From: a virus
Direction: 5' to 3' (one strand)
Length of the DNA: 21,639 nt
IMG/VR virus record: IMGVR_UViG_3300032308_002288
Span: 1-21,639 of that record
A program made the position numbers and the translations under genes. Of this stretch, positions 1-20,777 are shown in pieces (the first letter of the stretch is position 1; each line of letters starts with the position of its first letter). The notes beneath the pieces are model-generated. The model was not told where the DNA came from. It was given only the letters and a program-made list of their open reading frames with translations, and ran no database searches.

Positions 1-768
1 CTGCTGACCTACGCCCGGCAGGTCAAGGCGGGAAACGCACCGGAATTGCAACCGGCAGCGTTCCCGCGGCTCCTTGTCCCGTTCTACACGGGCGAGGAGC
101 AGATCGACGCGGCCAAGCAGGCGGCAAATCCCGACGCGCTGATTGACCGCACCTCGATGCCCGGGTTGTCGCTTGTCGACGCCCGGATCGCGGTGGACGA
201 TTTCGTGGCGCGGTCCATCGACGAGAACATGGCGTGGGAAGACCATCGTCCTGTTCTCGGCCAGATGGTTCCGAACCCGTTTCGGGACATGACGACGATC
301 AACATCAAGGTCGTTAATCCTGCCCGGAAGATCCTGCAGCGGCGTAACCTCACGCGCGCTGACGTCGTCACGCAAACCGTGCTCGACGAGATGGTTCACG
401 AGTTTTGGGTCGAGTCGGCAGATCATGACGTCCCGGAAGAAGTGATATACGACGCACTTCTTAACCCGGACGCCCCGGTCGCTGTGCCTACGCCGATTTA
501 CACGGCGCGGCGCAACATGCCGACGCCGGAATTTCTGGAAGCAGCCCGTGATGTAATCGGGCCGCTCGGTGACGCCGTGACGGACGACGATATCTTGGCA
601 GCGGTTGAAAACCCGCAGCAGGATATGTCGGCCACGTACCGGTCGAAAATCCAGATCTGTTCGGTGGAGGATCTGCAGGATCTTCCAGCGCCTTATGGCG
701 GCAGCGTGCTTCCGCCTGTAAACTGGAAGCCAGTGTCCCAGCAAAAGATCGCCCCGGCTATGGCGTAA
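1..768 (+). CDS. Unrecognised phage protein, 5' end outside the window
   Basis: The frame is open from base 1 to the TAA at 766-768. A TTG at 46 could serve as a start, but the frame continues without a stop to the window edge and no ribosome binding site precedes 46, so the gene most likely begins upstream. At least 255 residues are visible. The protein is soluble-looking and acidic, rich in Asp, Pro and Val, with no signal peptide, membrane segment or motif I recognise. The C-terminal third is proline-rich (residues around PAPYGG and PPVNWKP). It lies a few genes upstream of the portal gene and is joined stop-to-start to the next gene, so it is probably co-transcribed with it. Its position suggests a head or packaging role, but that is only inference from context. 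Confidence 0.7.
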   Translation: MLTYARQVKAGNAPELQPAAFPRLLVPFYTGEEQIDAAKQAANPDALIDRTSMPGLSLVDARIAVDDFVARSIDENMAWEDHRPVLGQMVPNPFRDMTTINIKVVNPARKILQRRNLTRADVVTQTVLDEMVHEFWVESADHDVPEEVIYDALLNPDAPVAVPTPIYTARRNMPTPEFLEAARDVIGPLGDAVTDDDILAAVENPQQDMSATYRSKIQICSVEDLQDLPAPYGGSVLPPVNWKPVSQQKIAPAMA

Positions 769-1062
769 ATGCGCTATTTCATTAAACCCAAAGACAGTAA
801 ATCTGTACCGGTATTAACGTGGCTCCTGCACATGGACGCCACGCCATCGGTGCTCCCGTCTTTTCCCGAAGACGGCGCGTTGGGTTTAGTGGTTGCGCAT
901 TTATTGTCCGGGAATGTGTTTGCCGAAGTGCTGCCAACCCCGGACAGCGTGGCCGAAGCCTGTGGCGAAGGGGTTCCTCTTGGCAGACTGTATTTCCAAA
1001 TCCCTCGGGATCGGCTATACAGTGTCTGCCCGGAGTTGACCCCAGAATCTTTTGGGGGGTAA
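769..1062 (+). CDS. Small unrecognised protein (97 aa)
   Basis: The ATG follows directly on the stop codon of the preceding gene, so translation is probably coupled; I see no clear Shine-Dalgarno sequence. The product has 97 residues and ends in TPESFGG. It has no recognisable domain, signal peptide or membrane segment. The stop codon TAA lies inside the stem-loop of a strong terminator, so this is the last gene of its transcript if the terminator is used. Another short open frame overlaps on the same strand and one lies on the opposite strand. I prefer this frame because it abuts its upstream neighbour exactly and stops at the terminator. Function unknown. Confidence 0.65.
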   Translation: MRYFIKPKDSKSVPVLTWLLHMDATPSVLPSFPEDGALGLVVAHLLSGNVFAEVLPTPDSVAEACGEGVPLGRLYFQIPRDRLYSVCPELTPESFGG

Positions 1063-1091
1063 GTGCTATGTAGCACGCCCCCTTTTTTTTT
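1055..1091 (+). terminator. Rho-independent terminator overlapping a stop codon
   Basis: GGGGG (1055-1059) pairs with CCCCC (1078-1082). An inner GTGCT (1063-1067) pairs with AGCAC (1072-1076) around an ATGT loop, and the two helices are separated by TAA on one side and G on the other. Nine T residues (1083-1091) follow at once. The stop codon TAA (1060-1062) forms the internal bulge, so a ribosome terminating there would cover the hairpin. The next gene starts only 17 bases after the T tract. Confidence 0.85.
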
Positions 1092-1098
1092 AGCTATC

Positions 1099-1102
1099 GG
1101 AG
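1099..1102 (+). promoter_or_regulatory. Shine-Dalgarno GGAG that decides the start at 1108
   Basis: GGAG lies five bases before the ATG at 1108. The same frame is open back to a GTG at 1063, but that codon lies inside the terminator stem and has no ribosome binding site of its own, so 1108 is the better start. Confidence 0.7.
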
Positions 1103-1107
1103 ATCGC

Positions 1108-2037
1108 ATGGACGGTTACCGCGACCCAACGCAGGAAAAACTTAGCAATGGTCGGTCTATGGCTGACCTCATGCGTGGCGGTGTAAAAGGTTTACGCGGT
1201 GTCGTGGTGGGGCCGGCAACGGCTGGCGGGGTTCCGGTTAACTTCAATCCGCACGACCGACACAAAATTGAGATCAATATCGAGCCTGACAGCCCGGGTA
1301 GTCGGACCGTGACACTCGATCAAATCACTGCGGCGAGCGTCGAAAAGGCTATGGCTGTGGCCACTGAAAAGTATCCGGCTGGCGACATTGACTCGATTAG
1401 GGAGCGGACGGCTATGGCATTTGAAGAACTGGCAAAGATTGCAAAATCAGGCGTGCAGCGAACACCCACGAAACAAGCGACTGCGCGGCAAGTCCCGCGC
1501 CCGCCCGTTCCCGAAGAGGAAGCAATTATCGAAGAATTACAGAACGAGTCGCAGGCGCTGGCGGCTACGGATCAGCCGCCTATGGTTGTTCCCGTTGAAA
1601 AAATTGACCGTAATTACAGCCCAATGGCGGCGTTCGGCTTAAAGAAATCCCCGCCGGCCCAAACAATGACAAATTCCGTGGTTACGAGTCAGCGCGTGGG
1701 CGCGCCGCAGAAACTGGCGTATTTCGAGAAGGAGGGTCTCGGCACAGTGCCAGCGTTCTACCATGATGTCATTGTCTCTGTTTCGCGGGACGATCCTGAT
1801 AATTATGACTACACCGGGTTCATGGTATTAGTTTACGACCTGCGATTTGAACAGAATGCTGCGCGCTGGTTTCCGCCCTCAAACGATCCGTATCAGCGTC
1901 CATGGGCTGTTTTGTTGAAAGGCGAGCAGCGGTTGTACCTTGTTCAAACGACCGGTTTTCAGTATGTTTATGATAACCGCGAATACTGTGTATTAAAGGT
2001 TGAGCGCGCTGTCATCGCCGCGGAAGCAGAGGTGTAA
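1108..2037 (+). CDS. Unrecognised phage protein (309 aa)
   Basis: Start chosen at the ATG at 1108 because GGAG sits five bases upstream; an in-frame GTG at 1063 would put the N-terminus inside the terminator. The protein has two visible parts. The first (about residues 1-130) is charged and includes a helical-looking Ala/Glu-rich stretch. A Pro/Glu/Gln-rich linker follows (about 130-200). The C-terminal part (about 205-309) is rich in Tyr, Phe and Val, consistent with a small beta-rich domain (for example around FYHDVIVSV and QYVYDNREY). No known catalytic motif is evident. It lies directly before a 50-residue protein and the portal gene, so an accessory virion or portal-associated role is possible, but this is only context. 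Confidence 0.75.
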   Translation: MDGYRDPTQEKLSNGRSMADLMRGGVKGLRGVVVGPATAGGVPVNFNPHDRHKIEINIEPDSPGSRTVTLDQITAASVEKAMAVATEKYPAGDIDSIRERTAMAFEELAKIAKSGVQRTPTKQATARQVPRPPVPEEEAIIEELQNESQALAATDQPPMVVPVEKIDRNYSPMAAFGLKKSPPAQTMTNSVVTSQRVGAPQKLAYFEKEGLGTVPAFYHDVIVSVSRDDPDNYDYTGFMVLVYDLRFEQNAARWFPPSNDPYQRPWAVLLKGEQRLYLVQTTGFQYVYDNREYCVLKVERAVIAAEAEV

Positions 2038-2038
2038 C

Positions 2039-2191
2039 ATGGAGAAGCGGGCTATCATCGAACCGGGTCGAACGCCAGAAGAACACCCGGAGCAGGTTTC
2101 CGCCCCGCAGCAAAAAAAGGCGGCGGTTGCGGATCTCGATAACGACTTCCGCAAACGGGCCGCTGAGGCTGCTCGCACAACTACGAAATAA
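2039..2191 (+). CDS. Very small charged protein (50 aa)
   Basis: The ATG at 2039 is preceded by GAGGTG at 2029-2034 with a four-base spacer. The same frame extends upstream to an ATG at 2000 inside the preceding gene, but that codon has no comparable binding site. The product is 50 residues, very hydrophilic, rich in Glu, Arg, Lys, Ala and Gln, and ends in AARTTTK. It looks disordered or helical, with no membrane segment. It fits exactly between the 309-residue gene and the portal gene with one base of spacing upstream, which supports it as a real gene despite its size. Function unknown. Confidence 0.6.
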   Translation: MEKRAIIEPGRTPEEHPEQVSAPQQKKAAVADLDNDFRKRAAEAARTTTK

Positions 2192-2202
2192 CGGGGCGCA
2201 GC

Positions 2203-5200
2203 GTGTCAGCAGGACCCACAGCATCGCCCGGGTACGGTAATGCACCCGGGCGCAGCAACATGGCCGACGAGCGGTTCCCAGACCCGTTCTGCGACGTGGC
2301 CAGCCTGTCGATGCCCGAGAGCATCCAGACGGCGCTGCGCTGGTGCATTGTGCCGGGCACGCCCGTGGAACTGGCAGATTTGTCGTTAAAAGCCATTGAA
2401 GACGTCTGTCCGGGCGATGTTGTTTTGACGCGCGGCGGGACCGCAGAGCGCGTTTTACGCTATAGCGTGCGTAATGTAGCGGAAGATATTGTTTCGTTGT
2501 CTTTTTCTGGCTTGGGAAAACGTACGCCGCTGCGTCTGACCGGCAATCACAATTTGTGGGTAATTCGCGCTGGCTCTAAAAAACCGTCACAAATTGCTGT
2601 AAATCTAAAAGACGCCGAAAAGATAGCGGCTGCGGAAGTTCGAAAAGGCGACTATGTTGCGACGCCGCTGCCTATTCGCGCGGCGGTTACTGCGCCAAAA
2701 TATGACGGGTGGTTAATCGGCATGTATCTCGCCGAAGGTTGCGTATGCCGCGCCGGCGATCGTGTTATGCGCGTGCGGTTTACTTGTGGTGCCGGCGACG
2801 CGGATTCGGGCGTGCTGGCAAAATTAGTCGCGGAACTGCGCGACGGAACGGGCCAAGAAGCCGAAATTTATACGCCGCCATCACGACCAGATGTGCGCCT
2901 TATAACGATTTCTGACGTCGAATTTCCTGACTGGGTTGCTGAGCATTGTCCCGGATTGGCCAAAACAAAAAAACTTTCTTCGGCTTGTTTGTCGTGGTCT
3001 GACGAAACAATACTCGGCGTCATTGGCGGTTTAATCGACGGCGACGGTAATTGTTCGCAAACGAAAAAAGTTTTTCGTGATGCGGCGGTTTGGTCGGCTT
3101 CGCGCACTTTGCTGTACCAATTACAGCGGCTGGCGCAACTTGCCGGGTTGTGCCCTTCGTTATGTGAGGTCGGCGCCAAGCGCGGTTACGGAAGCTACAG
3201 CAGTGACGTGTCATACTGCTTAAAGTTTTCAAAAACAGACTGCCAGCGTCTGACGCCATACAGCGTAAAAATACAGCAGGCGCAGCGAAACCTTGTCGGC
3301 TTTATTCCGGCGAAAGGCGCTACCGGCAAATCTTTTGTCCGCGACGGGTACGTGTTTCGTCGTGTGACCGCCGCGGCGCGAGCGTCGTATACCGGCCCGG
3401 TTCACAATTTTGAAGTCGAAAATGATCACAGTTACATTGCGGGCGGTGTGACGGTCGCTAATTGCGAATACATCATGAACGCCAACGGTGTCTACCGGCA
3501 GGCGATCGACCGGGTGGTGTCGTATTTCATCACCGACGTCGAAATTAACGATACTGGCGACAAGACGATTGGGCAGGAAGAAAAAGAAAAGTACAGTGTC
3601 TTTCTGGAAGACACGCTCGGCATTAAGAACGTGCTGCACACGGTCGCGTTGGATTATCTGACCTACGGCAATTCGTTCACCAGCCTGTTGCTGCCGTTTC
3701 GCAGGTATTTGTCCTGCAACAACTGCCGGCTGGAAATGCCGCTGGAGAAAGTGCACAACTCTACGCAGTGCGCATTTAAGTGGCAGGACTTTCAGTTCCA
3801 CGCCACCTGTCCGAACTGCAAAGTTACGGGTGTGTGGCGGCATATTGACCGGCGCAGCGGAGACGACAAAGGTGTCACTGTAAAACGCTGGAGTCCGCAT
3901 GAGATTGATATTCTTTGGGACCCGTATAGCACGGAGTGCCAGTATGTGTGGAAGATTCCGGAAGACTATCGGAATCAGATCAAGGCCGGGCACTTGCACT
4001 ACTTGAAGAACGCAAGTTGGGAGGTTATCGAGGCCATTAAAGATGGTAAGAACCTCATGTTTGATAAAGGCGTGCTGTACCAGTTGAAAGAAGACGGACT
4101 GGCCGGCATGCGTAACCGCGGCTGGGGCATCTCGCGCGTCCTGACAAACTTCCGGCAAGCGTGGTACGTGCAGATTCTGATGCGGTACAACGAAGCAATT
4201 GCGCTCGATTACGTTGTGCCGTTTCGGGTTATCACGCCGGCGCCCAAGGGCGGCGATGCAGCTTCTGGCGATCCGGTTCACAGTATCAATCTTTCAAGTT
4301 TTTCTTCCCGCGTGCAGCAAATGTTGCGAGCCCGCCGAAGTGACCCTGCCCGGTGGAATGTGCTGCCGTTCCCGGTGAACTATCAGGCACTCGGCGGAGA
4401 TGCCAGTCAGTTGGCTCCGCGGGATCTTATTGATCAGGGGCAAGAAACGCTCCTGAAGTGCATCGGCATGCCTGTTGAATTATTCAACGGCACACTGACG
4501 CTCCAAGCCGCCCCGGCTGCGTTGCGCTTGTTCGAAGCCAACTGGGGTCATTTACCACATAATTTGAATCGGTTCTTAAACGATCTGGCGGACAACATTT
4601 CTCGGTCCATGTCGTGGTCGCCCGTGTCGGCCAAACTCACCCGCGTCACGCACGCCGACGACCTCAACCGGCAGATGGCGAAACTGCAACTCATGCAAGG
4701 CCAGCAGATCTCCAAGACTACAGGGCTCAAGTCTGTCGGCCTCGATTACGAGGAAGAGACAAAGCGGATGCTCGAAGAGGAGAAGATTTACGCCGAAGAG
4801 CAGCAGCGTATGCAGGCAGAGATGGAACAGTCGCAGCAAATGCAGGCTATGTCTCAACCTGCCAATATGATGGCCGGCGTGGGCGATACTGGCTCAGGCG
4901 CTACGGGTATGCCGCAGGGTCAACCCGGCGCGGCTCCGGCCGGCGGCGGCGCGCCTGCGCCGGGTCAGCCGCCGATGTTGCCGGGTCAGGCGCCCAGCGC
5001 CGTCGACCAGTTCCTCATGCAGCGGCAGAACTCGCCGAGTGTGCCGCGCACGCCTGAAGAATTGCAAACACAAGCGCAATTAATTGCAAATGACCTGCTG
5101 TCGAAACCCGAAAGTTTGAAGGATTCTGAACTCATCAAACTCAAGCGGGCCGATGCCACGATGCACGCCCTCGTGACGAGTATAATCGACGATATTCGGC

Positions 5201-5277
5201 AGCAGGCCCGCTCGCAGGGTGGGGCCATGCTGATGGCGCAGCAGTACGGCCAAGGCGGGGCCGCACCGCCTCAATAA
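2203..5277 (+). CDS. Portal-like protein precursor containing an intein
   Basis: The 1024-residue precursor would yield a 651-residue protein after removal of an intein at residues 48-420. The host part resembles a tailed-phage portal protein, the dodecameric ring at the capsid vertex through which DNA passes. Supporting segments are an N-terminal region followed by LDYLTYGNSF, a WDPY segment, a central YNEAIALDYVVPFRVI stretch, and a late GMPVELFNGTLTLQ segment leading into a long helix-rich part, as in portals of large phages. A CX2C pair at C505/C508 and another at C536/C539 look like a zinc ribbon, unusual for a portal. The C-terminal part (about residues 845-1024) is a Glu/Gln/Met-rich coiled-coil-like segment, then a Gly/Pro/Ala-rich linker, then a helical tail. 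The GTG at 2203 is the longest start; the ATG at 2260 (residue 20) is an alternative. Neither has a convincing Shine-Dalgarno sequence. Portal assignment is by pattern only. Confidence 0.75.
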   Translation: MSAGPTASPGYGNAPGRSNMADERFPDPFCDVASLSMPESIQTALRWCIVPGTPVELADLSLKAIEDVCPGDVVLTRGGTAERVLRYSVRNVAEDIVSLSFSGLGKRTPLRLTGNHNLWVIRAGSKKPSQIAVNLKDAEKIAAAEVRKGDYVATPLPIRAAVTAPKYDGWLIGMYLAEGCVCRAGDRVMRVRFTCGAGDADSGVLAKLVAELRDGTGQEAEIYTPPSRPDVRLITISDVEFPDWVAEHCPGLAKTKKLSSACLSWSDETILGVIGGLIDGDGNCSQTKKVFRDAAVWSASRTLLYQLQRLAQLAGLCPSLCEVGAKRGYGSYSSDVSYCLKFSKTDCQRLTPYSVKIQQAQRNLVGFIPAKGATGKSFVRDGYVFRRVTAAARASYTGPVHNFEVENDHSYIAGGVTVANCEYIMNANGVYRQAIDRVVSYFITDVEINDTGDKTIGQEEKEKYSVFLEDTLGIKNVLHTVALDYLTYGNSFTSLLLPFRRYLSCNNCRLEMPLEKVHNSTQCAFKWQDFQFHATCPNCKVTGVWRHIDRRSGDDKGVTVKRWSPHEIDILWDPYSTECQYVWKIPEDYRNQIKAGHLHYLKNASWEVIEAIKDGKNLMFDKGVLYQLKEDGLAGMRNRGWGISRVLTNFRQAWYVQILMRYNEAIALDYVVPFRVITPAPKGGDAASGDPVHSINLSSFSSRVQQMLRARRSDPARWNVLPFPVNYQALGGDASQLAPRDLIDQGQETLLKCIGMPVELFNGTLTLQAAPAALRLFEANWGHLPHNLNRFLNDLADNISRSMSWSPVSAKLTRVTHADDLNRQMAKLQLMQGQQISKTTGLKSVGLDYEEETKRMLEEEKIYAEEQQRMQAEMEQSQQMQAMSQPANMMAGVGDTGSGATGMPQGQPGAAPAGGGAPAPGQPPMLPGQAPSAVDQFLMQRQNSPSVPRTPEELQTQAQLIANDLLSKPESLKDSELIKLKRADATMHALVTSIIDDIRQQARSQGGAMLMAQQYGQGGAAPPQ
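2225..2252 (+). repeat. GC-rich perfect inverted repeat (9-bp stem) at the start of the portal gene
   Basis: CGCCCGGGT (2225-2233) is the exact reverse complement of ACCCGGGCG (2244-2252), with a 10-base loop. It lies between the two candidate start codons GTG 2203 and ATG 2260, ending seven bases before the ATG. There is no T tract, so it is not an intrinsic terminator. It could affect translation of the portal mRNA, or it may just be coding sequence. Confidence 0.5.
2344..3462 (+). other. Intein with LAGLIDADG homing endonuclease domain (373 aa) inside the portal gene
   Basis: Precursor residues 48-420 form an in-frame protein-splicing element. Block A is CIVPGTPV with Cys48 as the N-terminal splice residue. 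Block B is LTGNH with the expected T-x-x-H (T113, H116). Two LAGLIDADG-type motifs follow: LIGMYLAEG at 171-179 and VIGGLIDGDG at 273-282, with acidic residues E178 and D279/D281 as likely catalytic positions. Block F is VHNFEVENDHSYIAGG. Block G is VTVAN, followed by Cys421 as the first residue of the C-terminal extein. The usual penultimate His is replaced by Ala419. Splicing would join Trp47 to Cys421. By hand count, G+C is 40% at 2461-2520 and 45% at 2941-3000 inside the intein, against 70% at 2281-2340 and 62% at 3481-3540 outside, suggesting separate acquisition. Confidence 0.93.
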
Positions 5278-9160: not shown

Positions 9161-10093
9161 ATGTCAAATAAAAAAATCACCGAATTACCGGAAAAAATAA
9201 CACCCTCTGGCGCCGATATCATTCCTATCGTCGACGTGTCGCTCGCCCAGCCCACGACAAAACGCACAACTATCGGCGCGCTTATTGACCTTATTGGTTC
9301 TGGGCCCGCCGGTTCAAACGGACAAACTGGCGCGACCGGCGCAACTGGCGTACAAGGTATTCAAGGTACGCAAGGTCCCGTGGGCGCCACCGGCCCGCGT
9401 GGCGCAACGGGCGTACAAGGGCCCACGGGTGTTGCCGGATCTGTTGGCGCGACAGGTTTGCAGGGTTTAGCTGGGCAGACGGGTATGCAAGGCCCGAGAG
9501 GGACTCAGGGTCAGACCGGCCTCGCGGGCGCGACGGGCTTTCGCGGCGCGACCGGCGTGCAAGGCGCGACAGGTGTTGCTGGCGCAATTGGGCCGCAAGG
9601 CGCAACTGGCGTTGTCGGCGTCACCGGCGCAATTGGCCCCACCGGCGTTCAAGGTTTGACTGGAGCTACAGGGCCGCAGGGGCCCGCCGGGTCAGGCGTC
9701 ATTATTAAAGGAATTGCCGCCCAGTGGCCGCCGGCGCTAAATCCTGTTGTAGGTGACATGTGGTTAGTTTCAACACCTATTCCGGGCGGTTTTCCCGTCG
9801 GTACCCAATCTGGTGACGGGTTTGTCTGGTCTGGTTCTGGCTGGATCAACGTTGGGCCCGTTCGTGGGCCGCAGGGAGTTACCGGCCCGCAGGGGCCATC
9901 TGGTGCAGTCGGCGTTCAGGGCGCTACCGGGCCGGCAGGTGTCAACGCGTCGGGTGTGACTGTCGCGGCGACAAAACAAATAACAGTTTCAAACACTCTG
10001 ACGTTATCGTCGGCTGACGGCGCGCCAGTTAATTTTGGCGGTGGCGGTACAGTCGTTTACACAAATTCCATCATTGACGGCGGCGCGTACTAA
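9161..10093 (+). CDS. Collagen-like phage fibre protein
   Basis: The 310-residue protein is built like a trimeric phage fibre. Residues 1-46 ([21 protein letters not shown]) match the N-terminal segment often found in phage fibres that begin with ITELP and then a Gly-Ala-Asp turn. Residues about 48-178 are an almost unbroken run of some 40 Gly-X-Y triplets rich in Gly-Ala-Thr, Gly-Val-Gln and Gly-Pro-Gln. A compact globular insert follows (about 180-235, with GDMWLVSTP and GSGWINVGP, the form that often separates collagen stretches in phage adhesins). A shorter second triplet run (about 236-260) leads to a beta-rich C-terminal segment. The triplets should form a collagen triple helix extending from the particle. 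Bacterial-type collagen lacks hydroxyproline, and Thr-rich triplets fit that. Only weak ribosome binding (AGGGCG) precedes the ATG. Confidence 0.9.
9302..9697 (+). repeat. Tandem Gly-X-Y coding repeats (collagen-like)
   Basis: The DNA is a degenerate nine-base-periodic array, with units such as GGCGCAACTGGC and GGCGTACAAGG recurring many times with small changes. The Gly codons fall every third codon throughout. Recombination or slippage here would change fibre length in whole triplets. The array also leaves several other frames open by chance. Confidence 0.85.
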
Positions 10094-10109: not shown

Positions 10110-12704
10110 ATGGCAAACATCATTAAACACAAACGCAGCGCAGTTTCGGGCGCGGTGCCAGCCGCGGATAGCCTGTCTGCCGGCGAGTTAGCTATCAATA
10201 CCGCCGACGGAAAACTTTTCACACGTAAAGCTGACGGCACAGTCATTGAGTTAACAAAAGCCACAGCAATCGATGGCGGTGAAATTGCCTACGACAGCCT
10301 GCTCAACGGCTTACAAGCTTTTTGGCTTTTTGATAACACTGTGGGCCACATTCCAGACGTATCCGACAACAATCACCCGTTGTTTGTAGCGGTGTCCGCG
10401 ACCGCGGCAGAAATCAGTGTTCAAAATAGGGGCTTGACGCTAGACCGCGCAAATTTTTTATACGCAGCGCATGCTTTTTCCACGCGCCGCACAGTGGCGT
10501 TTTGGTTAAAAATTTACGACGCGCCGCAAACAGATAAAACAATTTTGACGTTTGGTCCCTTTGGCGCAACAAGCGGTGTCGAATATTTAGCCCTAAACGA
10601 TGACAGAGAGTTGCGGTGGTATGGTTCGCCGCACACTAACGTCACGGTAGTTTCTACCGCAATTCCACTAAATGCTTGGACACACGTAACGCTTGTACGT
10701 GACGCGGTTTCAGACGCGGGTACGCTCAAGATATACATAAATGGCGCGCTGCAGTCATCAATCAGTGCCGCGCCAACTAATCCGCCGTCTAACGCGTCAG
10801 ACGTTGTAACTTTCGGCTCATTTGATCCAGCCGTCCGCGTAAGTTTTGACTGCGCTGGCATCTGGAACCGCGCAATCACACCCGCCGAAGTTGCTGCTTT
10901 GTTTAATGGCGGTGGCGATGCTTATTCGTTGCCGGCCGTTCCGGCAGTACCGGTAGATCCGGCAGCTTTCGTCAACGTCTTTGCAACTGCGCCCATTACA
11001 TCTTTGACGGCCTCGGTGGCTGGTTCTTCTGGAACCCTTTTTCCAGCATTTGATCCCGACATTTATGACTACGGCGTACTAACAAACTCGACAACGCTGG
11101 GCAGTACAGCTACCTACACCCTTACGGTTAACGGCACTCCGACAACCGATAGTTCTTTTGTCGGAAAAACAATTAAAGTGTCGTTCGGCGAAACAGCGTA
11201 TTACATTCGACTGTTGCCGTCGGACATGCCGTTAGGCGCCGTGGTTACCCAGCCGCAAGAAGGTTACGTGCCGGGTTACTACATCACCACGAGCCGCCGC
11301 GACATCAACGTCGGCAACTACAACATCGTGTATGACGAGCGCGGGGTTCCGGTGTGGTATGTGCAAAACGCAGGCACGCCGCACTTAGCGCAACACGGAA
11401 ATGATCGCAACAAAGTCGGCGTCAGTCGTAACGGCACCGGCCAGCGCTACTCAATGACGATCACAGATGACGCAATTGAAACGAAAGCGTTCAATTTTCT
11501 ACCCACTGTGCGGAACGGTAATACATATCAATACAACTTTGGCAATCACGAATTTTTAGAGATCACAAGTCCGCCGTCTGCGCGCGGCAACGTTATTTAC
11601 AACACGTTTGTAACGCAACCCGCCGCTGGTTCTCCGGCGATTACCGACAAAGCGTACGGCGTTTATATTCAAGAGCAGACGCCGCAAAACACGATTGGCT
11701 GGGAGTGGTGGACGAGTGATCGTTTTGACCAGACCGCGCTTGCTCGTAACGCGTCGTTCTTCCACATGAATTCTGTAGATATTCATCCCGTCACTGGCGA
11801 CATGCTTTTAAGCTGCCGGCAGTGTTCGGCGATTGTTTGCGTTGATCGCGCGACTAAAGACGTTAAGTGGGTGATTCAAGGCGCGTCGCAGCCGTGGGGT
11901 AACATCATTCAAACAGCGAACCAGTACACGCTTGATAACGCCAAGTGGCTCACGCTGGAAGACGAGCCAGAGTTAGAGGGTTATCAATACCTTGGCCCAG
12001 AAGGGCAGCATCATGCGCGCTGGGCGACGAATGTTAATCCGCTCACGCCCGGCAATCAAGTAATAGCTATTTTTGACAATCAGGCCGGCTTTTTCCCGGG
12101 CAGCACCAATTCGCCTAAAACGGTGAGCGCGCTGACACAGACCGGTACAACGGTAACTGGTACGGCCGCAGCGCACGGATTTACGACCGGGGCATACGTC
12201 CAAGTTGTCGGCGCTAATGAGTCGGTGTTTAACGGTATTTTTTCTGTTACGGTCGTAGACGCAAACACGTTTACTTACACAGTAACCGAAAGCGGATCAG
12301 CCACCGCGACAGGCACAATTACAGCCACGCGGGCTTTGACCTACTGGCCACACAGCGCCAATTCGCCGGCAGCGCGAGGCGTAATTTACGAAATCGACCT
12401 GACGAACAACAAAGCCATACACCGTGCCAGTGTGTTTGCGCCGAACGGGACGTCTGGTTATCTCGGTAGTTATCAAATCATGCGGCACGATAGCGGCGAA
12501 TATAGCCACGTGCTAAATTTTACGCAGCAGCATCCGCCGCTCGTGGAATACGGCGACTCGGGTGACGGCGCTTCTCCCACAGAAATCATTTTCGCGGTAG
12601 ACTTTCCCGGCGATCTTTACAGGATCACAAAAGTCTCAAAAGACTATTTTGATATTGATTACTTGCGCGCTACTGCTGGGTTACCCATAACCGTTGTATC
12701 CTAA
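10110..12704 (+). CDS. Adhesin with LamG-like and arylsulfotransferase-like domains (copy 1)
   Basis: Start at ATG 10110, with AGGA at 10095-10098 and no better upstream start; 864 residues. Residues 1-50 (LSAGELAINTADGKLF, then GTVIEL) are a short phage-fibre anchor module. About residues 65-274 form a LamG/concanavalin-type beta-sandwich (GLQAFWLFD, then NAWTHVTLVRD, then LKIYINGAL). About 290-370 resemble a small beta-sandwich with PAFDPDIYDYGV. About 370-864 resemble the six-bladed propeller of aryl-sulfate sulfotransferases (ASST, Arylsulfotran family). Candidate catalytic residues are His480 (NHEF), His552 and Arg570 (HMNSVDIHP to SCR, 18 residues apart) and His634 (GQHHARW). In the E. 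coli enzyme His356 and Arg374 are also 18 apart and His436 carries the sulfate. A beta module of about 90 residues interrupts the propeller. Family assignment is good; activity is inferred. Confidence 0.8.
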   Translation: MANIIKHKRSAVSGAVPAADSLSAGELAINTADGKLFTRKADGTVIELTKATAIDGGEIAYDSLLNGLQAFWLFDNTVGHIPDVSDNNHPLFVAVSATAAEISVQNRGLTLDRANFLYAAHAFSTRRTVAFWLKIYDAPQTDKTILTFGPFGATSGVEYLALNDDRELRWYGSPHTNVTVVSTAIPLNAWTHVTLVRDAVSDAGTLKIYINGALQSSISAAPTNPPSNASDVVTFGSFDPAVRVSFDCAGIWNRAITPAEVAALFNGGGDAYSLPAVPAVPVDPAAFVNVFATAPITSLTASVAGSSGTLFPAFDPDIYDYGVLTNSTTLGSTATYTLTVNGTPTTDSSFVGKTIKVSFGETAYYIRLLPSDMPLGAVVTQPQEGYVPGYYITTSRRDINVGNYNIVYDERGVPVWYVQNAGTPHLAQHGNDRNKVGVSRNGTGQRYSMTITDDAIETKAFNFLPTVRNGNTYQYNFGNHEFLEITSPPSARGNVIYNTFVTQPAAGSPAITDKAYGVYIQEQTPQNTIGWEWWTSDRFDQTALARNASFFHMNSVDIHPVTGDMLLSCRQCSAIVCVDRATKDVKWVIQGASQPWGNIIQTANQYTLDNAKWLTLEDEPELEGYQYLGPEGQHHARWATNVNPLTPGNQVIAIFDNQAGFFPGSTNSPKTVSALTQTGTTVTGTAAAHGFTTGAYVQVVGANESVFNGIFSVTVVDANTFTYTVTESGSATATGTITATRALTYWPHSANSPAARGVIYEIDLTNNKAIHRASVFAPNGTSGYLGSYQIMRHDSGEYSHVLNFTQQHPPLVEYGDSGDGASPTEIIFAVDFPGDLYRITKVSKDYFDIDYLRATAGLPITVVS
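12084..12368 (+). other. Extra beta domain inserted in the ASST-like propeller of copy 1
   Basis: Residues about 659-753 lie between DNQ and AARGVIYEIDLTN. In the paralogue the same flanking motifs (DNQ and ARGVVYEIDLTN) are only six residues apart. The inserted part contains TTVTGTAAAHGFTTGAYV, ESVFNGIFSV and NTFTYTVTESG, a small beta-rich module I have seen as a recurrent unit in phage structural proteins. A short Pro/Ser-rich linker precedes it. Confidence 0.75.
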
Positions 12705-12719
12705 TTTTATTAGCACATC

Positions 12720-15700
12720 ATGGCATCAAACATTCAATTTAAGCGCGGTACCGCTGCTGCGCTGTACGCTCTCAATCCCGTTCTGCTTCGCGGCGAGCCG
12801 GGGCTAGAGGTAGATACGAACAAAATTAAATACGGCAACGGTGTAACCCCGTGGCGAAATCTGCCTTACGCCAATCCGGCGCTTGAGGTGGTAGACGGCG
12901 GTGAGTTTACAGCCGGCGCCGTGCCCGCCGAGCCGGATATTTTTAGCCCGCCCACGATCGCTGGTTTAAAGCTATGGCTGGATGCGGATAACGCGGATTA
13001 CGTGCACCGTGTAAATAACCGCGTATCGGTATGGGAAGATGCGTCTGAATCCGGCGCCAAGTTTGTGCAGTCAAGCAAATCGTCGCGACCGCAAGCCACT
13101 AACCAGCTTGCCAGCAAAGATGTTGTGACGTTTGATGGCGATAACGACGTCATGCTTAGTAAGTTTGATCTGCCTGCCGAATTTACGTTATTAGTCGCTC
13201 TCCGGCGTCGCGGTCGAAGCACCAGCGGCAAACTAATCACCGCCTATACGACCGACAGCGCAACAGAACTCGTGTTATGCGGCACAGAAACCGGCACCAC
13301 ATTTGGCGTGCAGTTTGACGGTGATTATCTGGTGCCGCAGTCGGTTGATAATATGCAACCGGTTGTGTACACGCTGCAATTCAGCGCAGCCGGTATTTCT
13401 ACGCGCGCGAACGGTTCAGACACGCAATACGCGAACAGTATTTCTGTCTCGGGTCTGACGCATTTAGCGCTCGGCGGTGATCGCGTTGATTTTGCTTCTG
13501 ACAACTATAGCGGCGACATTGCCGAAGTCGTTTTATACGACAGCGTATTGTCGGCTGCAGATTTAATTGACGCTGAGAACTACATGTTGGCTCGCTGGGG
13601 CGTGGTTAGCGTTAATCACCCGCTGCTCACCGGGATGAGAGCGTTCTGGCGTCTGAACGAAGAATCTGGCTCGCGTTTAGGTATTACAGCGCTGCAAGTT
13701 CCGCTGACGCAGGTTGGCACGGTCGGCTTTTCTGCTGGCGTCATTAACAACGCGGCTGAATTGCCCGGCGGCAATAACTACCTGCAAGCGCCAAGCTCTT
13801 TTGCGCTCGCCGGCTCGTTTTCTGTTTCGGCGTGGTTTAAAGCTGCGTCGATGTCCGGCGGGCGTGCTGCGCTCGTGCAGAACTGGGCTGCTGGAAATGC
13901 GTCTGGGCAGCTAGAGATCGGTTTTGGTGACACTGGTTTAGATACCAATGCCGTATTTGGTCGCATCGCTACTTCTGCCGCCACCTACTCTGTCGTTGCG
14001 CCAGATTTGACTGCTAATTTCTGGCACCACGTTGTGCTGGTATACAGCGCCAGCGACAACACGCTTACGTTGTACATCAATGGGTTGCAGGCCGCGCAGG
14101 TAGCCACGAGTGGTTCTTTCAGTGCAGGAAACATTCCGCTGCGCGTTGGAATTGGCGATCAAACGGCTACGCAAAATAATCTTGCCTGCTTGGTTGATCA
14201 GCTTGGCGTCTGGGACCGCGTTTTGTCGCTGCAAGACGTTCAGATGCTCTACAACTACGAACTCGGCAAAGAAAATTTCACTGTCGACTTGGATGGCAAC
14301 AACGTTTCGCTGCTCCTACACATGGACAAGCCGGCGAACGCGCTAGCGCTCAACGCAGTCGACCCCTATATCAATAACGCTACGCTGCTGCTCCATTTCA
14401 ACGGGACTAACGGCAGCAAAAACATTGTTGATTCTTCTCCGCAAGACGGTGACGTCACAGTTGTTGGCGACATTCAAATTAGCACTACTCAAAGTAAATT
14501 TGGCGGCGCTAGTCTCAGGTGCCCTGATAGTTACAGCGACTATCTGGATGGCTTTGCGGACGTAGATCTGTCTACTGGTAGCTGGACTGTAGAGTGCTGG
14601 TTTTTAACCAACGGGCCAAACATCGGTAATAACCGGACTGTGCTTAGCGCCGGGTATCAAGATTATCCAAATCGGTGGATTATAGATATCTCTGTTAACG
14701 CTCTCGGTCTTTTGCCCCGTATTTACGGCGTTGGAAACAGCATTTACGCCGGCGGCGAACCCCCCAACAACGCCGGCGGCGGCGCGACACCTACGCCGTA
14801 TACCTACGGCACGTGGGCGCATGTCGCTTGGGTAAACGATTCAGCCGCTGATGAATTCGCTATGTATGTAAACGGTGTCCGGGTATACACTCGCGACGCG
14901 TTTAATCTACCAAAATACAATACGATTCAAATTGGCCAACAAGCGTCGGTGTTCGGCTCAGAAGAGTTCTATATTGACGAATTGCGCGTGCTGAATATCG
15001 CTGTATACACAGCTAACTTCAGCCCGCCGACAGCGCCATTTGGTAATTCGTTGCTGCCAGTGGCCGAGTTTATCGACACATCAAAGCATAACCACGCGGT
15101 GACACCGGCGGGTAACGCGCAACTTAGGTTTGAAAATAGCAAGTACGGTAACGCTAGCGGCGCTTTCGCGGCTGATGGGCATTGCGAACTAGAGATGGCG
15201 CCAGAGTTTGCGTTCGACGATGGCGATTTTACTGTTGAGTTCTGGGGCAAACTGAACTACGTCCAGTATTCTGCGGTGTTCTCTACGGCGTCCAGTGCGC
15301 AGGAACCGGGTACCTACATTATCGGTTTCCGTGACGACGCGAACATGTTTGGGTTTTGCTACGACATAGACAATTTTACGTTTATTGCAGCAAATATCTC
15401 AGCATATTACGACATGTGGACGCACTACGCGTTTGTGCGGCTTGACGGCGTGCTGAAGATGTATGTCAACGGCGTTGAAGCGGCATCCGCAACGACGGCT
15501 ATGAATTTAGACGGCGGCAGCCAGACAACCGCCGTGATCGGCCGCCGATGGACAAATGAAGACGAGCATTACCTTAACGGATTGCTTGACGACTTCAGAA
15601 TCACCAAGGGCGTTGCCCGGTACGCGGCCGAGTTTACCCCGCCTCCCCGTGCGCTCCCTGATCCGGTTATTCCGGCGCCGCCCCCGCCGCAAAACGACGC

Positions 15701-18470
15701 GCTGCCCGCCGAGTACGTTACACTACTGCTTCATATGGATGGCGCAGATGCCAGCACTACTTTTGTTGATAATTCGTATTTGCAGCATACTGTGACTGCC
15801 GAAGGCTCCGCGGCTATTAGCACAGCCCAGAGCAAGTTTGGCGGGGCGAGCGCGTACTTTGATGGAAACGCGTATCTCACCGTACCGCCTGAAAATTTAA
15901 CGCTGTCAGAAGATAATTGGACAGTAGAGATGTGGTTCTATCCGACAACGAATAGCGGATATATGGCGCTTTTTTCTCACAACATATGTGGAACGCAGCT
16001 GTTCGGTTACGAGATCACGCTGGACTTTGGCGGCTGGCAACCCGGCCGGCATGTGCGTGTATTTTTCGGCGACGGACCAAATGTTGGTTATGGCCCCGGC
16101 CACTCCAATCTTATGTTTCCGATACCAGACGAAAACGCCGACAATAAATGGACACATCTTGCAGTTACTAGAGCCGGCCAGTCAGTACGTTGCTTCTGGA
16201 ATGGAGTGCAAATTGGTCCCACAGCAACATCGAATCTTGCTGTTAACCCGCTAACCGGAGTCGACTGTGACGTGACAATTGGCGGAAGATTCTGCACTTC
16301 TCCGGGCTCTCTCGACGCCGGTTTTCAAGGGTACATCGACGATCTGCGCATCACGCCGGGCGTCGCGCGCTACACGGAAAACTTTACACTGCCCACAACG
16401 CCGTTCCCGAGCCCGTTTACACCTAACCTAACAGCGTCTCTCTTGCTGCACTTTGACGGCGAAAACGATAGTCCGGATTTTGCCGACAGCAGCCAGAACT
16501 CGCTGCAAGTGACAAGTAATAATGGCGCGGTTATTAGCACCGCGCAGAGCAAGTTCGGCGGAGCGAGCGGGTACTTTTTAGCCGGCAGTGGCAGTTACCT
16601 GTCGATTAATGCCAGCGATGCATTTGATTTTGACTCTGGCGACTTTTGCATAGAGGCTTGGATCAAATTGCAGACCGGAGGCAAGAGCATCTGCTCTGGC
16701 AATGCCATTGGCGACTATATGTTTGCCACGGGCGTATATGGTGCTGGCGACATCGGATTCGGCCGCAACGGATTAACGTGGGATTTGTTGGCAAGCAATC
16801 CCGGACTCACGTCGGAATGGAATCACGTTGCCGTCGCGAGGTCCGGCACAACGCTTCGCCTTTTCTGCAACGGCGTAGTCGTAGCGACGGGCAGCGGCAA
16901 TTCATTAGCGTACAACGTGCAAGATACCCTGTGGATTGGGGCGAGAGTAGACAGCGGCCCGGCTGAGTTCTTCAACGGCTATATCGACGAATTTCGCATT
17001 GTCAAAGGTAGTGCCGTCTACACCCGCAACTTCACGCCCCCGACCGCGCCGCTCAGCGCCACATCCGAAGTCACACCCACAGATGTCGCTGGTTGTGATC
17101 TGTGGCTCGACTCTACCGCTGAAATCGGCACGCTTAATGGCTCGATCACGGTGTGGCCCGACAAGAGCGGCAATACACGTCCAGCTACACCCGCTGACTA
17201 TGCGCCGGCGCCGACGTTGGCTGTTGGCGAAGGACTTGCCGGGCAGAATGTTGTGCGTTTCAGCGGCGACCCGAATGTGCTTGACGTGGCATACGAGTTT
17301 AATCTCAAGAATTCGTCTGGGTTTGTAGTACTTAAACAGCCAACGCCTTTGAATGCGCCACCCGGTTTTCAAAGAATTCTGGCGTTTCAGCCAACTACGG
17401 GAATCGACGCGCAGCAAAATGATGGTTTGGCGCTGGTGTTTAATAACTACACCACTGACGGCGTAGAGTTGTATTCCAACGGCGACCCCCCGATTGGTCA
17501 GCACGCTATGCCGCTGCCTGCTGATTGGACGCTGCTCGCGTACACAATTGATAATTCCGGCAATCTCTCTCTGCGCGTAAATGGCGAAGAAGTTGACACC
17601 GGCGTCAATGCAAGCATGGCGCAAACTGCTGGCGGCAATCTTTATATTGGTCACGGCGGCACGTTCGCCATCGACGAAGCCCTTCACGGCGACATCGCAG
17701 AGGTTGTAATTTTTGATCATGCGCTGGGCGACGCGGCGCTGATTGGACTAGAGCGCGGCTTACTGGCGCGTTGTTTGCCGCCCACGCCACCGCCGCCGCC
17801 CCCGCCGCCATCATACGACGGGCCATCGGCGCTTCTCCTGCACTTTGACGGCGAAAACAATAGCCCGGATTTTGCCGACAGTGGCCAGAACTCGCTGCAA
17901 GTGACAAGTAATAATGGCGCGGTTATTAGCACCGCGCAGAGCAAGTTCGGCGGAGCGAGCGGGTATTTTGCCGGCGGCTCGTGGCTGACTGCGCCGGCTT
18001 CGGCGGACTTCGCTTACGGGACGGGCGACTTCACCATTGAGATGTGGATGTACTTCGACGGCGCGAACATAGCTTCAGCGATACAAGTGCTATACGCCCA
18101 GAGCCAGTCTGGAAGCAATTACTGTGTTATCGCTCTTTTCTACGGATCTGTGGTGTTTCTTTATGGCTACGGTAACCCCGCAAATTACGTGTACGGGGTG
18201 TCCGGGTCTTCGGTGACCGCAAACGCGTGGCACCATGTCGCTGTGTGTCGCCTTAACGGGGTGTTTAAAGTGTATGTAAACGGCGTGAGCGGGGTTCCGG
18301 TTACAGACGCATTTGATTTTGACAACACGACCCTTGAGCCGACTATTGGATCATACGGACATAACCAGGGCTACAATTTTACCGGTTACATTGATGAACT
18401 GCGTGTCATTAAGGGTTACGCGGCTTACCCTGCAAACTTTACACCCCTAACAACTCCTTTTAACCCGTAA
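12720..18470 (+). CDS. Giant multi-LamG lectin-like adhesin (1916 aa)
   Basis: The first 58 residues (FKRGTAAALYALNPVLLRGE, then NGVTPWRNLPY) resemble the N-terminal domain of the Bordetella phage major tropism determinant (Mtd) and related fibres. The rest is a chain of concanavalin/LamG-type beta-sandwiches at about residues 77-294, 305-516, 550-777, 529-540 plus 778-980 (split by the previous one), 998-1233, 1239-1450, 1456-1687 and 1703-1916. Most carry LLLHFDG or LLLHMDG, ISTAQSKFGGAS, a WTHVAW-type strand, YVNGV and a final IDELRV plus YTxNFTPP edge strand. Domains 1 and 7 are a second type beginning GLKLWLDA / GCDLWLDS and ending GDIAEVVIFD. Proline linkers (PPPPPPP near residue 1695) join some domains. 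Such domains often bind glycans, so receptor binding is likely but ligands are unknown. The ATG has no Shine-Dalgarno sequence. Confidence 0.88.
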   Translation: MASNIQFKRGTAAALYALNPVLLRGEPGLEVDTNKIKYGNGVTPWRNLPYANPALEVVDGGEFTAGAVPAEPDIFSPPTIAGLKLWLDADNADYVHRVNNRVSVWEDASESGAKFVQSSKSSRPQATNQLASKDVVTFDGDNDVMLSKFDLPAEFTLLVALRRRGRSTSGKLITAYTTDSATELVLCGTETGTTFGVQFDGDYLVPQSVDNMQPVVYTLQFSAAGISTRANGSDTQYANSISVSGLTHLALGGDRVDFASDNYSGDIAEVVLYDSVLSAADLIDAENYMLARWGVVSVNHPLLTGMRAFWRLNEESGSRLGITALQVPLTQVGTVGFSAGVINNAAELPGGNNYLQAPSSFALAGSFSVSAWFKAASMSGGRAALVQNWAAGNASGQLEIGFGDTGLDTNAVFGRIATSAATYSVVAPDLTANFWHHVVLVYSASDNTLTLYINGLQAAQVATSGSFSAGNIPLRVGIGDQTATQNNLACLVDQLGVWDRVLSLQDVQMLYNYELGKENFTVDLDGNNVSLLLHMDKPANALALNAVDPYINNATLLLHFNGTNGSKNIVDSSPQDGDVTVVGDIQISTTQSKFGGASLRCPDSYSDYLDGFADVDLSTGSWTVECWFLTNGPNIGNNRTVLSAGYQDYPNRWIIDISVNALGLLPRIYGVGNSIYAGGEPPNNAGGGATPTPYTYGTWAHVAWVNDSAADEFAMYVNGVRVYTRDAFNLPKYNTIQIGQQASVFGSEEFYIDELRVLNIAVYTANFSPPTAPFGNSLLPVAEFIDTSKHNHAVTPAGNAQLRFENSKYGNASGAFAADGHCELEMAPEFAFDDGDFTVEFWGKLNYVQYSAVFSTASSAQEPGTYIIGFRDDANMFGFCYDIDNFTFIAANISAYYDMWTHYAFVRLDGVLKMYVNGVEAASATTAMNLDGGSQTTAVIGRRWTNEDEHYLNGLLDDFRITKGVARYAAEFTPPPRALPDPVIPAPPPPQNDALPAEYVTLLLHMDGADASTTFVDNSYLQHTVTAEGSAAISTAQSKFGGASAYFDGNAYLTVPPENLTLSEDNWTVEMWFYPTTNSGYMALFSHNICGTQLFGYEITLDFGGWQPGRHVRVFFGDGPNVGYGPGHSNLMFPIPDENADNKWTHLAVTRAGQSVRCFWNGVQIGPTATSNLAVNPLTGVDCDVTIGGRFCTSPGSLDAGFQGYIDDLRITPGVARYTENFTLPTTPFPSPFTPNLTASLLLHFDGENDSPDFADSSQNSLQVTSNNGAVISTAQSKFGGASGYFLAGSGSYLSINASDAFDFDSGDFCIEAWIKLQTGGKSICSGNAIGDYMFATGVYGAGDIGFGRNGLTWDLLASNPGLTSEWNHVAVARSGTTLRLFCNGVVVATGSGNSLAYNVQDTLWIGARVDSGPAEFFNGYIDEFRIVKGSAVYTRNFTPPTAPLSATSEVTPTDVAGCDLWLDSTAEIGTLNGSITVWPDKSGNTRPATPADYAPAPTLAVGEGLAGQNVVRFSGDPNVLDVAYEFNLKNSSGFVVLKQPTPLNAPPGFQRILAFQPTTGIDAQQNDGLALVFNNYTTDGVELYSNGDPPIGQHAMPLPADWTLLAYTIDNSGNLSLRVNGEEVDTGVNASMAQTAGGNLYIGHGGTFAIDEALHGDIAEVVIFDHALGDAALIGLERGLLARCLPPTPPPPPPPPSYDGPSALLLHFDGENNSPDFADSGQNSLQVTSNNGAVISTAQSKFGGASGYFAGGSWLTAPASADFAYGTGDFTIEMWMYFDGANIASAIQVLYAQSQSGSNYCVIALFYGSVVFLYGYGNPANYVYGVSGSSVTANAWHHVAVCRLNGVFKVYVNGVSGVPVTDAFDFDNTTLEPTIGSYGHNQGYNFTGYIDELRVIKGYAAYPANFTPLTTPFNP
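14352..15050 (+). other. LamG domain apparently nested inside another LamG domain
   Basis: Residue 529 begins VSLLLHMDKPANAL, the first strand of a LamG unit, but the next residues start a complete second unit (ATLLLHFNG). After that unit ends (FSPPTAPFGNS, residue 777) the sequence resumes as LPVAEFIDTSKHNHAVTPAG, the usual second segment of a LamG unit, without its own LLLHFDG strand. The simplest reading is one domain inserted into a loop of another. Confidence 0.6.
16446..16577 (+). repeat. Near-identical 132-bp direct repeat, copy 1 (LamG coding)
   Basis: This stretch aligns without gaps to 17838-17969, 1392 bases downstream. By eye there are about five mismatches, and 16492-16573 is identical over 82 bases to 17884-17965. 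It encodes LHFDGENxSPDFADS through KFGGASGYF of two LamG domains. Sequences outside it diverge quickly. Confidence 0.9.
17838..17969 (+). repeat. Near-identical 132-bp direct repeat, copy 2 (LamG coding)
   Basis: Second copy of the 16446-16577 repeat, in the last LamG domain of the same protein. The identity includes synonymous third positions, so it reflects recent duplication or gene conversion rather than protein constraint alone. More divergent relatives of the same motif occur near 14490 and 15815. Confidence 0.9.
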
Positions 18471-18476
18471 TTAACT

Positions 18477-20777
18477 ATGCCACCTATTGAAATTAGAGTT
18501 CGTCGCGGAACGGCGAGTTATCTTGCTGACCAAAACGCTGTTCTGGCTGCGGGCGAACCCTGCCTTGAAATTGATACTGGCAAGATCAAGTACGGTGACG
18601 GCGTCACGCCGTGGAATCAATTAACGTACGCCGTTACTGGCGACGAACTGCCCGGCACGAATAACGAAGTCACCGGCACAGACGGGTTTGCGGCAGGTGG
18701 TTCAGATAATCTTGCGAGCGGTACAGCCGCTGCAACACTGGCTGGTAAAAATAATACAGCTAGCGCCGCGCAGGCAGCAACGCTCGGCGGTAACGCTAAC
18801 ACCGCTGCCGGCGTTAATGCTGTTACGCTCGGCGGTAACGCAAATACAGCGAACGGTTTAAATAGCATTGCTGGCGGCAAAAACGCTGTTACTACAAAAG
18901 ACGCTCAATTTGCTTTGTCGGCCGGAAGCTTTTTTGTTCCCGGCGACGCGCAATTCTCTATTTACAACTTACGCGCAGCGACCGTAAACGATGTGCCAAC
19001 ACGCATGTACATCAACGGTACGACCGGCAATTTAACTTTGACGCCGGGCGCTGCGTGGGCATTTGAAGTCAAAGTGTCGGCATACGATGTTTCCGCAACC
19101 ACAGCCGGCGCGTGGACTATTCGCGGCAGCATTTATCGCGACTACGCAAATAACGTCAGCCTTTCCGGCGCGCCAGTAGTTGAATCTATTTCCGACTCGT
19201 GGCCCGCAGGCTCCGGTGTCGCGGTGTCTGCAGACGCTGTAAATAAAGCACTGGCTGTTACCGTAACCGGCGCTACCGCGCGTGAAATACAGTGGGTAGC
19301 CACAGTTTTGTCGACCGAGCTAATCTCGCCAGTGCAGCTAGAGTCGGACATGTTCGTGGAGCTTACTGCCAACGAAACGATTACCGACTTGGCGGTTTCA
19401 GTAGACGGAAACAGCATGCAGCCGGCTTTTGATCCGACCATCTACGATTACGTCGTGTGGTCGGATACTGATTTTTATAGCTCGTCAGAACGCAACTATT
19501 CTGTAACGATCAACAACGGCGATCCAGTTACCGGCACTGCGACTGTTAATAAAGCTTTGCGCGTCAAGCTAGGCCCGACAAGTTACTTTATTCGAATTCT
19601 TCCCAGCGATTTTCCAGCGCTGCCGACAATCGTTACAAAAACAAATCAGTACGTGCCCGGTTATTATTTAGCTGCGTGTACGCAAGCGATTGGGCCGTAC
19701 ATGGTGGTATACAACTCTAACGGCGTGCCGGTCTGGTACACATACAACGATGACTCGTTGTGTGAAGTTATCAGTCTGCACGCCGGTTGGGACACTAACA
19801 AACTGATTACTAACGGCAGCACGCACAACTGCGATCGATGGGATATCCATATTGGGCTGAATGAGTTGACTGCAAAACCGTATACGATGATTAATCCAAA
19901 CGGCAAAGGCAATAACGAAACGTGGGATATTCACGAGTCGCACGCCATCAAGGGGCCGGCAAATCGTAAGGGCAACATTATTTATGCAGCCTATACCGCT
20001 GTCGGCTTCTATATTCAAGAACAGAACCCTCAAAATCAAATCGTGTGGGAGTGGTGGACAGAGGATTATTTTGGTAATCGGTGGTCAGAGCTTTATCACA
20101 TCAACTCTATAGATGTGCATCCAATAACCGGAAACATTGTCGTCAGTTGCAGGCATAACAGCGCCGTATTCGCCATTGACTATGCAACAAAAGAAGTAAT
20201 CTGGATTATCGAGGGCGCAGTAAATTGCCACGGCGGCGGTTCTTTGTGGGGCGCGCGTATTCCGAACATGACGCAAAACACAAAGCTGCTCGTACTACAG
20301 GGCGAGCCAAGCCTATCGGGGAGTCAGTATGTGGGCCCAGACGCGCAACATGACGCCCGCTGGCATGTTGATGTTCCGCCGCTCACCCCCGGCAACGATA
20401 TTGTTTCTATCTCTGACAACCAAACATGTTCCGCGCGACCCGCCCGCGGCGTCGTGTACGAAATAGACCTTACAAACTCCTATGCAATTAACAGAATGCA
20501 AGTGGAGTCGCCCTACGGCAGTACTGGCTGCTGCGGGTCGTTTACGCTCCTGAAAGAGAACAATACAACCTACTCCGGCACAATGCTGTTAAACTCCGAA
20601 AACCCTAATACGGTAGAATTTAACTTGTCGTCGGCGGGTGTAAATCAGGGCGTCGTATTTGAAATGAACCTGCTGGGCTCGTGGTGGTATCGAGTTATCA
20701 AGGTTCGACCCGATTTCTTTGACTTGGATTACTTGCGTACAACTGCCGGGCGCATTCCAACCATTATTGGCGATTGA
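18477..20777 (+). CDS. Adhesin with Mtd-like anchor, beta-roll stalk and arylsulfotransferase-like domain (copy 2)
   Basis: The 766-residue protein starts six bases after the LamG giant, with no Shine-Dalgarno sequence. Residues 1-50 (RVRRGTASYLADQNAVLAAG, then YGDGVTPWNQLTY) are an Mtd-type anchor closely resembling the start of its upstream neighbour. Residues about 66-135 are 15-residue repeats (ATLGGNANTAAGVNA type) like the YadA head beta-roll. About 140-285 is a phage fibre beta domain (GDAQFSIYNLRAATVNDVPTR, then GAWTIRGSIYRD). About 300-385 contains PAFDPTIYDYVV, and 390-766 is an ASST-like propeller homologous to the gene at 10110. Candidate catalytic residues are His486 (DIHESH), His541 and Arg559 (YHINSIDVHP to SCR, again 18 apart) and His625 (AQHDARW). 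It lacks the inserted beta module of copy 1. Family well supported; enzyme activity inferred. Confidence 0.82.
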   Translation: MPPIEIRVRRGTASYLADQNAVLAAGEPCLEIDTGKIKYGDGVTPWNQLTYAVTGDELPGTNNEVTGTDGFAAGGSDNLASGTAAATLAGKNNTASAAQAATLGGNANTAAGVNAVTLGGNANTANGLNSIAGGKNAVTTKDAQFALSAGSFFVPGDAQFSIYNLRAATVNDVPTRMYINGTTGNLTLTPGAAWAFEVKVSAYDVSATTAGAWTIRGSIYRDYANNVSLSGAPVVESISDSWPAGSGVAVSADAVNKALAVTVTGATAREIQWVATVLSTELISPVQLESDMFVELTANETITDLAVSVDGNSMQPAFDPTIYDYVVWSDTDFYSSSERNYSVTINNGDPVTGTATVNKALRVKLGPTSYFIRILPSDFPALPTIVTKTNQYVPGYYLAACTQAIGPYMVVYNSNGVPVWYTYNDDSLCEVISLHAGWDTNKLITNGSTHNCDRWDIHIGLNELTAKPYTMINPNGKGNNETWDIHESHAIKGPANRKGNIIYAAYTAVGFYIQEQNPQNQIVWEWWTEDYFGNRWSELYHINSIDVHPITGNIVVSCRHNSAVFAIDYATKEVIWIIEGAVNCHGGGSLWGARIPNMTQNTKLLVLQGEPSLSGSQYVGPDAQHDARWHVDVPPLTPGNDIVSISDNQTCSARPARGVVYEIDLTNSYAINRMQVESPYGSTGCCGSFTLLKENNTTYSGTMLLNSENPNTVEFNLSSAGVNQGVVFEMNLLGSWWYRVIKVRPDFFDLDYLRTTAGRIPTIIGD
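18732..18866 (+). repeat. Three tandem 45-bp units coding YadA-like beta-roll repeats
   Basis: Units at 18732-18776, 18777-18821 and 18822-18866 each encode a 15-residue repeat of the form ATLGGNANTAAGVNA. The second and third units share ACGCTCGGCGGTAACGC exactly. A degenerate unit precedes them and another follows. Such repeats form trimeric left-handed beta-rolls in YadA-type heads. Confidence 0.85.

Follow-up and report, generated by a model that had tools for sequence, protein, structure and literature searches.

The portal protein forms the ring through which DNA enters the virus head, and inteins are mobile protein inserts that remove themselves. Six portal inteins (PORT) have been described in cluster C1 mycobacteriophages by Kelley et al. 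(2016), and the same study reported that some class 1 phage inteins have the penultimate His replaced by Gly, Lys, or Ser (PMC5050341). We found that the portal of Eggerthella phage LE2-3 (QXJ36669.1) also carries an intein, with a LAGLIDADG_3 domain, and among the TerL and RNR inteins of phiCbK-like phages there is one with an uncommon C-terminal Gly-Gln (PMC3556154). Both portal inteins and inteins lacking the penultimate His were therefore known before the example described here. This intein resembles the PORT inteins in lying in a phage portal, but it belongs to a different phage group from cluster C1, and its penultimate residue, Ala, is not named among the His replacements in the 2016 study (PMC5050341). 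It resembles the LE2-3 intein in its LAGLIDADG_3 domain and its position toward the N-terminal side of the portal; however, the two are only 23% identical, and the LE2-3 intein has other flanks, another insertion point (MRA-C...HN-C, residue 106; hyphens mark splice junctions throughout), and a penultimate His. The phiCbK-like inteins are likewise large-phage inteins, but their hosts are TerL and RNR rather than a portal (PMC3556154). A preliminary description of this locus had called a portal host less usual; that was fair, although such hosts were already known in mycobacteriophages (PMC5050341), and LE2-3 provides another. As side observations, the LE2-3 "portal protein" (L089:559-3777) and a nearby "tRNA synthetase" (L087:2087-5197) each contain an intein that is absent from the product name, and in Tenacibaculum phage PTm1 (L090:1823-5235) the alpha subunit of RNR contains an intein domain and is spread over two open reading frames (ORFs) ~550 bases apart, which may reflect a split intein or a free-standing insert.

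The sequence analyzed, here called the window, is a 21,639-base virus record from IMG/VR. An ORF on the plus strand (2203-5277) encodes 1024 amino acids (aa), and we are highly confident that it is a tailed-phage portal gene interrupted by a class 1 intein that contains a LAGLIDADG homing endonuclease, for which splicing, cleavage, and homing are predicted. The N-extein (2203-2343, plus strand) comprises the first 47 portal residues, from a GTG start to the end ...ESIQTALRW. It is followed in frame by the intein (2344-3462, plus strand), which spans 373 aa (C1 to N373; residues C48 to N420 of the ORF product), and then by the C-extein (3463-5277, plus strand), the rest of the portal protein, which starts directly after N420 with the +1 nucleophile, C421. 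The spliced portal would have 651 aa (1024 - 373), the length that the preliminary description had predicted.

The empty site in related portals is the strongest evidence for the intein. When viral contigs were searched with the C-extein as the query, 80 relatives were returned, and the junction was readable in 77. No insert was found at the junction in 75 of these, some of them near-copies of one another, in which the N-extein directly abuts the C-extein with the conserved consensus ...ESIQ(T/A/S/V)ALR(W/C)-(C/T/S/V)E(Y/F)I or V.... The closest intein-free relative (L001) encodes a portal protein that is 93% identical and has M as its start where the window has GTG. Its DNA aligns to window positions 1 to 2346 and then from 3463, with only the shared Cys codon overlapping. 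Because this alignment breaks and resumes at the splice points, it fixes both intein boundaries independently of the motifs. Comparison with intein-free portals, as proposed in the preliminary description, thus showed its coordinates for the intein to be correct to the codon.

The splicing blocks and junctions (W-C and VAN-C) were likewise as the preliminary description had given them. Blocks A (CIVPGTPV, with C1) and B (TGNH, with T66 and H69) lie at 2344-2550 and blocks F (VHNFEVENDHSY, with H362) and G (GGVTVAN, with the penultimate Ala and the terminal Asn) at 3400-3462, all on the plus strand. The Cys nucleophile of block A, the TxxH of block B, and a terminal Asn followed by Cys (N373-C+1) are all in place. 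In an alignment of nine phage inteins (A3), C1, T66, and H69 were invariant, as were D234, N373, and D361, S363, and Y364 of block F. A profile of these nine matched solved inteins, with PI-PkoII as the best match (1.1e-21) and with PI-SceI and gp41-1 also found. The Pfam Intein_splicing model matched the window copy weakly (0.0076, short of the cut-off) and a second allele described below (L081) better (8.6e-05). A profile of the two alleles had no match in the PDB, and an AlphaFold model of the intein, built from a three-row alignment with too few relatives, had a pLDDT of 34 and was unusable. A class 3 intein (WCT triplet, with a block F Cys as the first nucleophile) was excluded, since position 4 of block F is Asn and Cys1 is present.

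The penultimate position departs from the usual pattern, being Ala in both the window and the second allele. Among 11 phage inteins, the residue before the terminal Asn was Ala only in these two portal alleles, His in 8, and Lys in 1. The penultimate His is usual but not obligatory, and it is not a defining intein feature. Both Ala alleles also have VHN in block F, with His replacing the usual Tyr or Phe of VYN; that this His bears on splicing is a guess. The preliminary description had suggested that inteins with another residue in place of His often splice more slowly. As a rule this is unsupported: in the Bethlehem RDF intein, restoring the His slowed splicing (PMC5050341).

Both LAGLIDADG motifs noted earlier are present with their catalytic acids intact, as is characteristic of LAGLIDADG homing endonucleases. 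Motif 1, LIGMYLAEG (2713-2739, plus strand; catalytic acid E131), is identical in the second allele (L081). Motif 2, VIGGLIDGDG (3019-3048, plus strand; catalytic acid D234), lies in a LAGLIDADG_3 domain (PF14528; E=2.8e-07, past the cut-off). The intein is patchily distributed among the related portals, which is consistent with the predicted cleavage of intein-free alleles.

The second allele was found in IMG/VR contigs 3300034198_030354 and 3300032271_002275 (L005 and L006; intein sequences L081 and L082), which match each other at 99.8% identity; a pattern search that required Asn at the codon preceding the conserved C-extein start returned the same two intein-bearing contigs only. Their intein lies in the same gene at the same site with the same W-C and AN-C junctions as that of the window, and its blocks F and G are identical to the window's except for one residue of block F. 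The intein is 70% identical to that of the window, and the C-extein is 84% identical. Between the two alleles, dN/dS was ~0.13 for the intein, 0.09 for its splicing part, and 0.15 for its endonuclease part, values that are rough because dS is near saturation, and on this measure the intein is under purifying selection. A tree of the exteins places the window beside the empty L001 (100/99) and L005/L006 beside the empty L002 (100/99). Since each intein-bearing lineage pairs with an empty one, at least two intein gains or losses are needed. Synonymous divergence between the alleles (pS) was 0.69 in the intein, compared to 0.57 to 0.73 in neighboring genes, which gives no indication that the intein recently homed or was otherwise exchanged from one lineage to the other. 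Instead, the divergence fits either long-standing common descent of the intein with later losses or separate gains long ago. The sole match of the two-allele alignment in bacterial genomes (L085) was a histidine kinase, in which YDGWLIG is shared by chance.

The identification of the host protein as a tailed-phage portal is well supported by modeling and homology. The only PHROGs match of the portal was a weak one to phrog_64 (0.004 to 0.005), and fold comparison was therefore used. A structure model was made from L001, a natural intein-free homologue, with a 22-sequence alignment; its mean pLDDT was only 55, which is moderate. Foldseek matched this model to the T4 portal (1.6e-05), and the 50 PDB matches listed were portal or neck structures (Z 9.2 to 12.8), lambda, Chi, and G20C entries among them. 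The annotated "portal protein" of Salmonella phage Arash is a homologue of the C-extein (tblastn, E=3e-53); it is intein free, and its site reads KW-SRYI. Vibrio phages also carry a homologue (tblastn). As a separate observation, the intein-free portal homologue of Vibrio phage D181 has on each side a free-standing gene with a homing endonuclease annotation (L088:6970-7593 and 11750-12367).

Base composition did not set the intein apart. The preliminary description had given it a G+C content of 40 to 45% against flanks of 62 to 70%; the actual values are 53.5% for the intein, 54.3% for the whole window, and 56.4% for the C-extein, with only the 141-base N-extein (68.1%) being that rich. The intein stands at the 44th percentile among 1119-base windows, near the window mean, and we rejected low G+C as a sign of foreign origin. 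Third-position G+C was 53% in the intein versus 81% and 69% in the exteins, a modest difference. Elsewhere in the window, arylsulfotransferase (ASST) domains occur in two large proteins, one with a LamG-like domain (10110-12701) and one starting with an Mtd_N domain (18477-20774), a layout as if an enzyme were mounted on tail fibers. Between them, a 1916-aa protein (12720-18467) that starts with Mtd_N and contains seven LamG-like lectin domains is probably a receptor-binding fiber, and a collagen-like protein with three Gly-x-y stretches is encoded at 9161-10090.

On the class 1 reading, the 1024-aa precursor would be made first, and C1, aided by T66 and H69 of block B, would begin an N-S acyl shift. 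The N-extein would then pass to C+1, and N373 would cyclize, with His362 of block F, possibly plus the extra VHN His, substituting for the penultimate His, so that the 651-aa portal would be set free. In coinfecting phages, portal alleles without the intein would be cut by the endonuclease at RW-C and would then receive a copy of the intein. It is plausible that capsid assembly depends on the predicted splicing, as had been suggested. We think it quite improbable, however, that the Ala-Asn end and the VHN His are a naturally evolved substitute for the penultimate His whose tuning makes portal supply, and with it head assembly, dependent on splicing. Also very unlikely is that slow, conditional splicing benefits the phage by timing portal assembly: both alleles keep Ala-Asn and the penultimate residue is able to tune splicing (PMC5050341), but 75 of the 77 relatives do without the intein, so such control is unnecessary in general, and there is no known controlling condition.

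That the intein is a decaying copy, splicing dead or cleaving at one end only through loss of the penultimate His, is an outside chance. Ala does replace a His that 8 of the 9 other phage inteins in the panel keep (the ninth has Lys), but the frame is open, every other catalytic residue is retained, and Ala-Asn is kept in an allele only 70% identical with a whole-intein dN/dS of ~0.13. Moreover, tailed phages cannot do without their portal. That inteins without the His splice (PMC5050341) argues against it as well. Finally, there is almost no prospect that the insert is a fixed, nonspliced portal domain, as its in-frame position might suggest (nothing else was found in favor), since intein blocks stand at both ends and residues 48 to 420, far from being kept as part of the portal fold, are absent with exact ends from the 93% identical portal and 74 others.

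As a class 1 portal intein, this example leaves the general picture of phage inteins unchanged. It is a clean portal intein with close empty alleles, which makes it a useful system in which to test both homing into a structural gene and splicing without the penultimate His.
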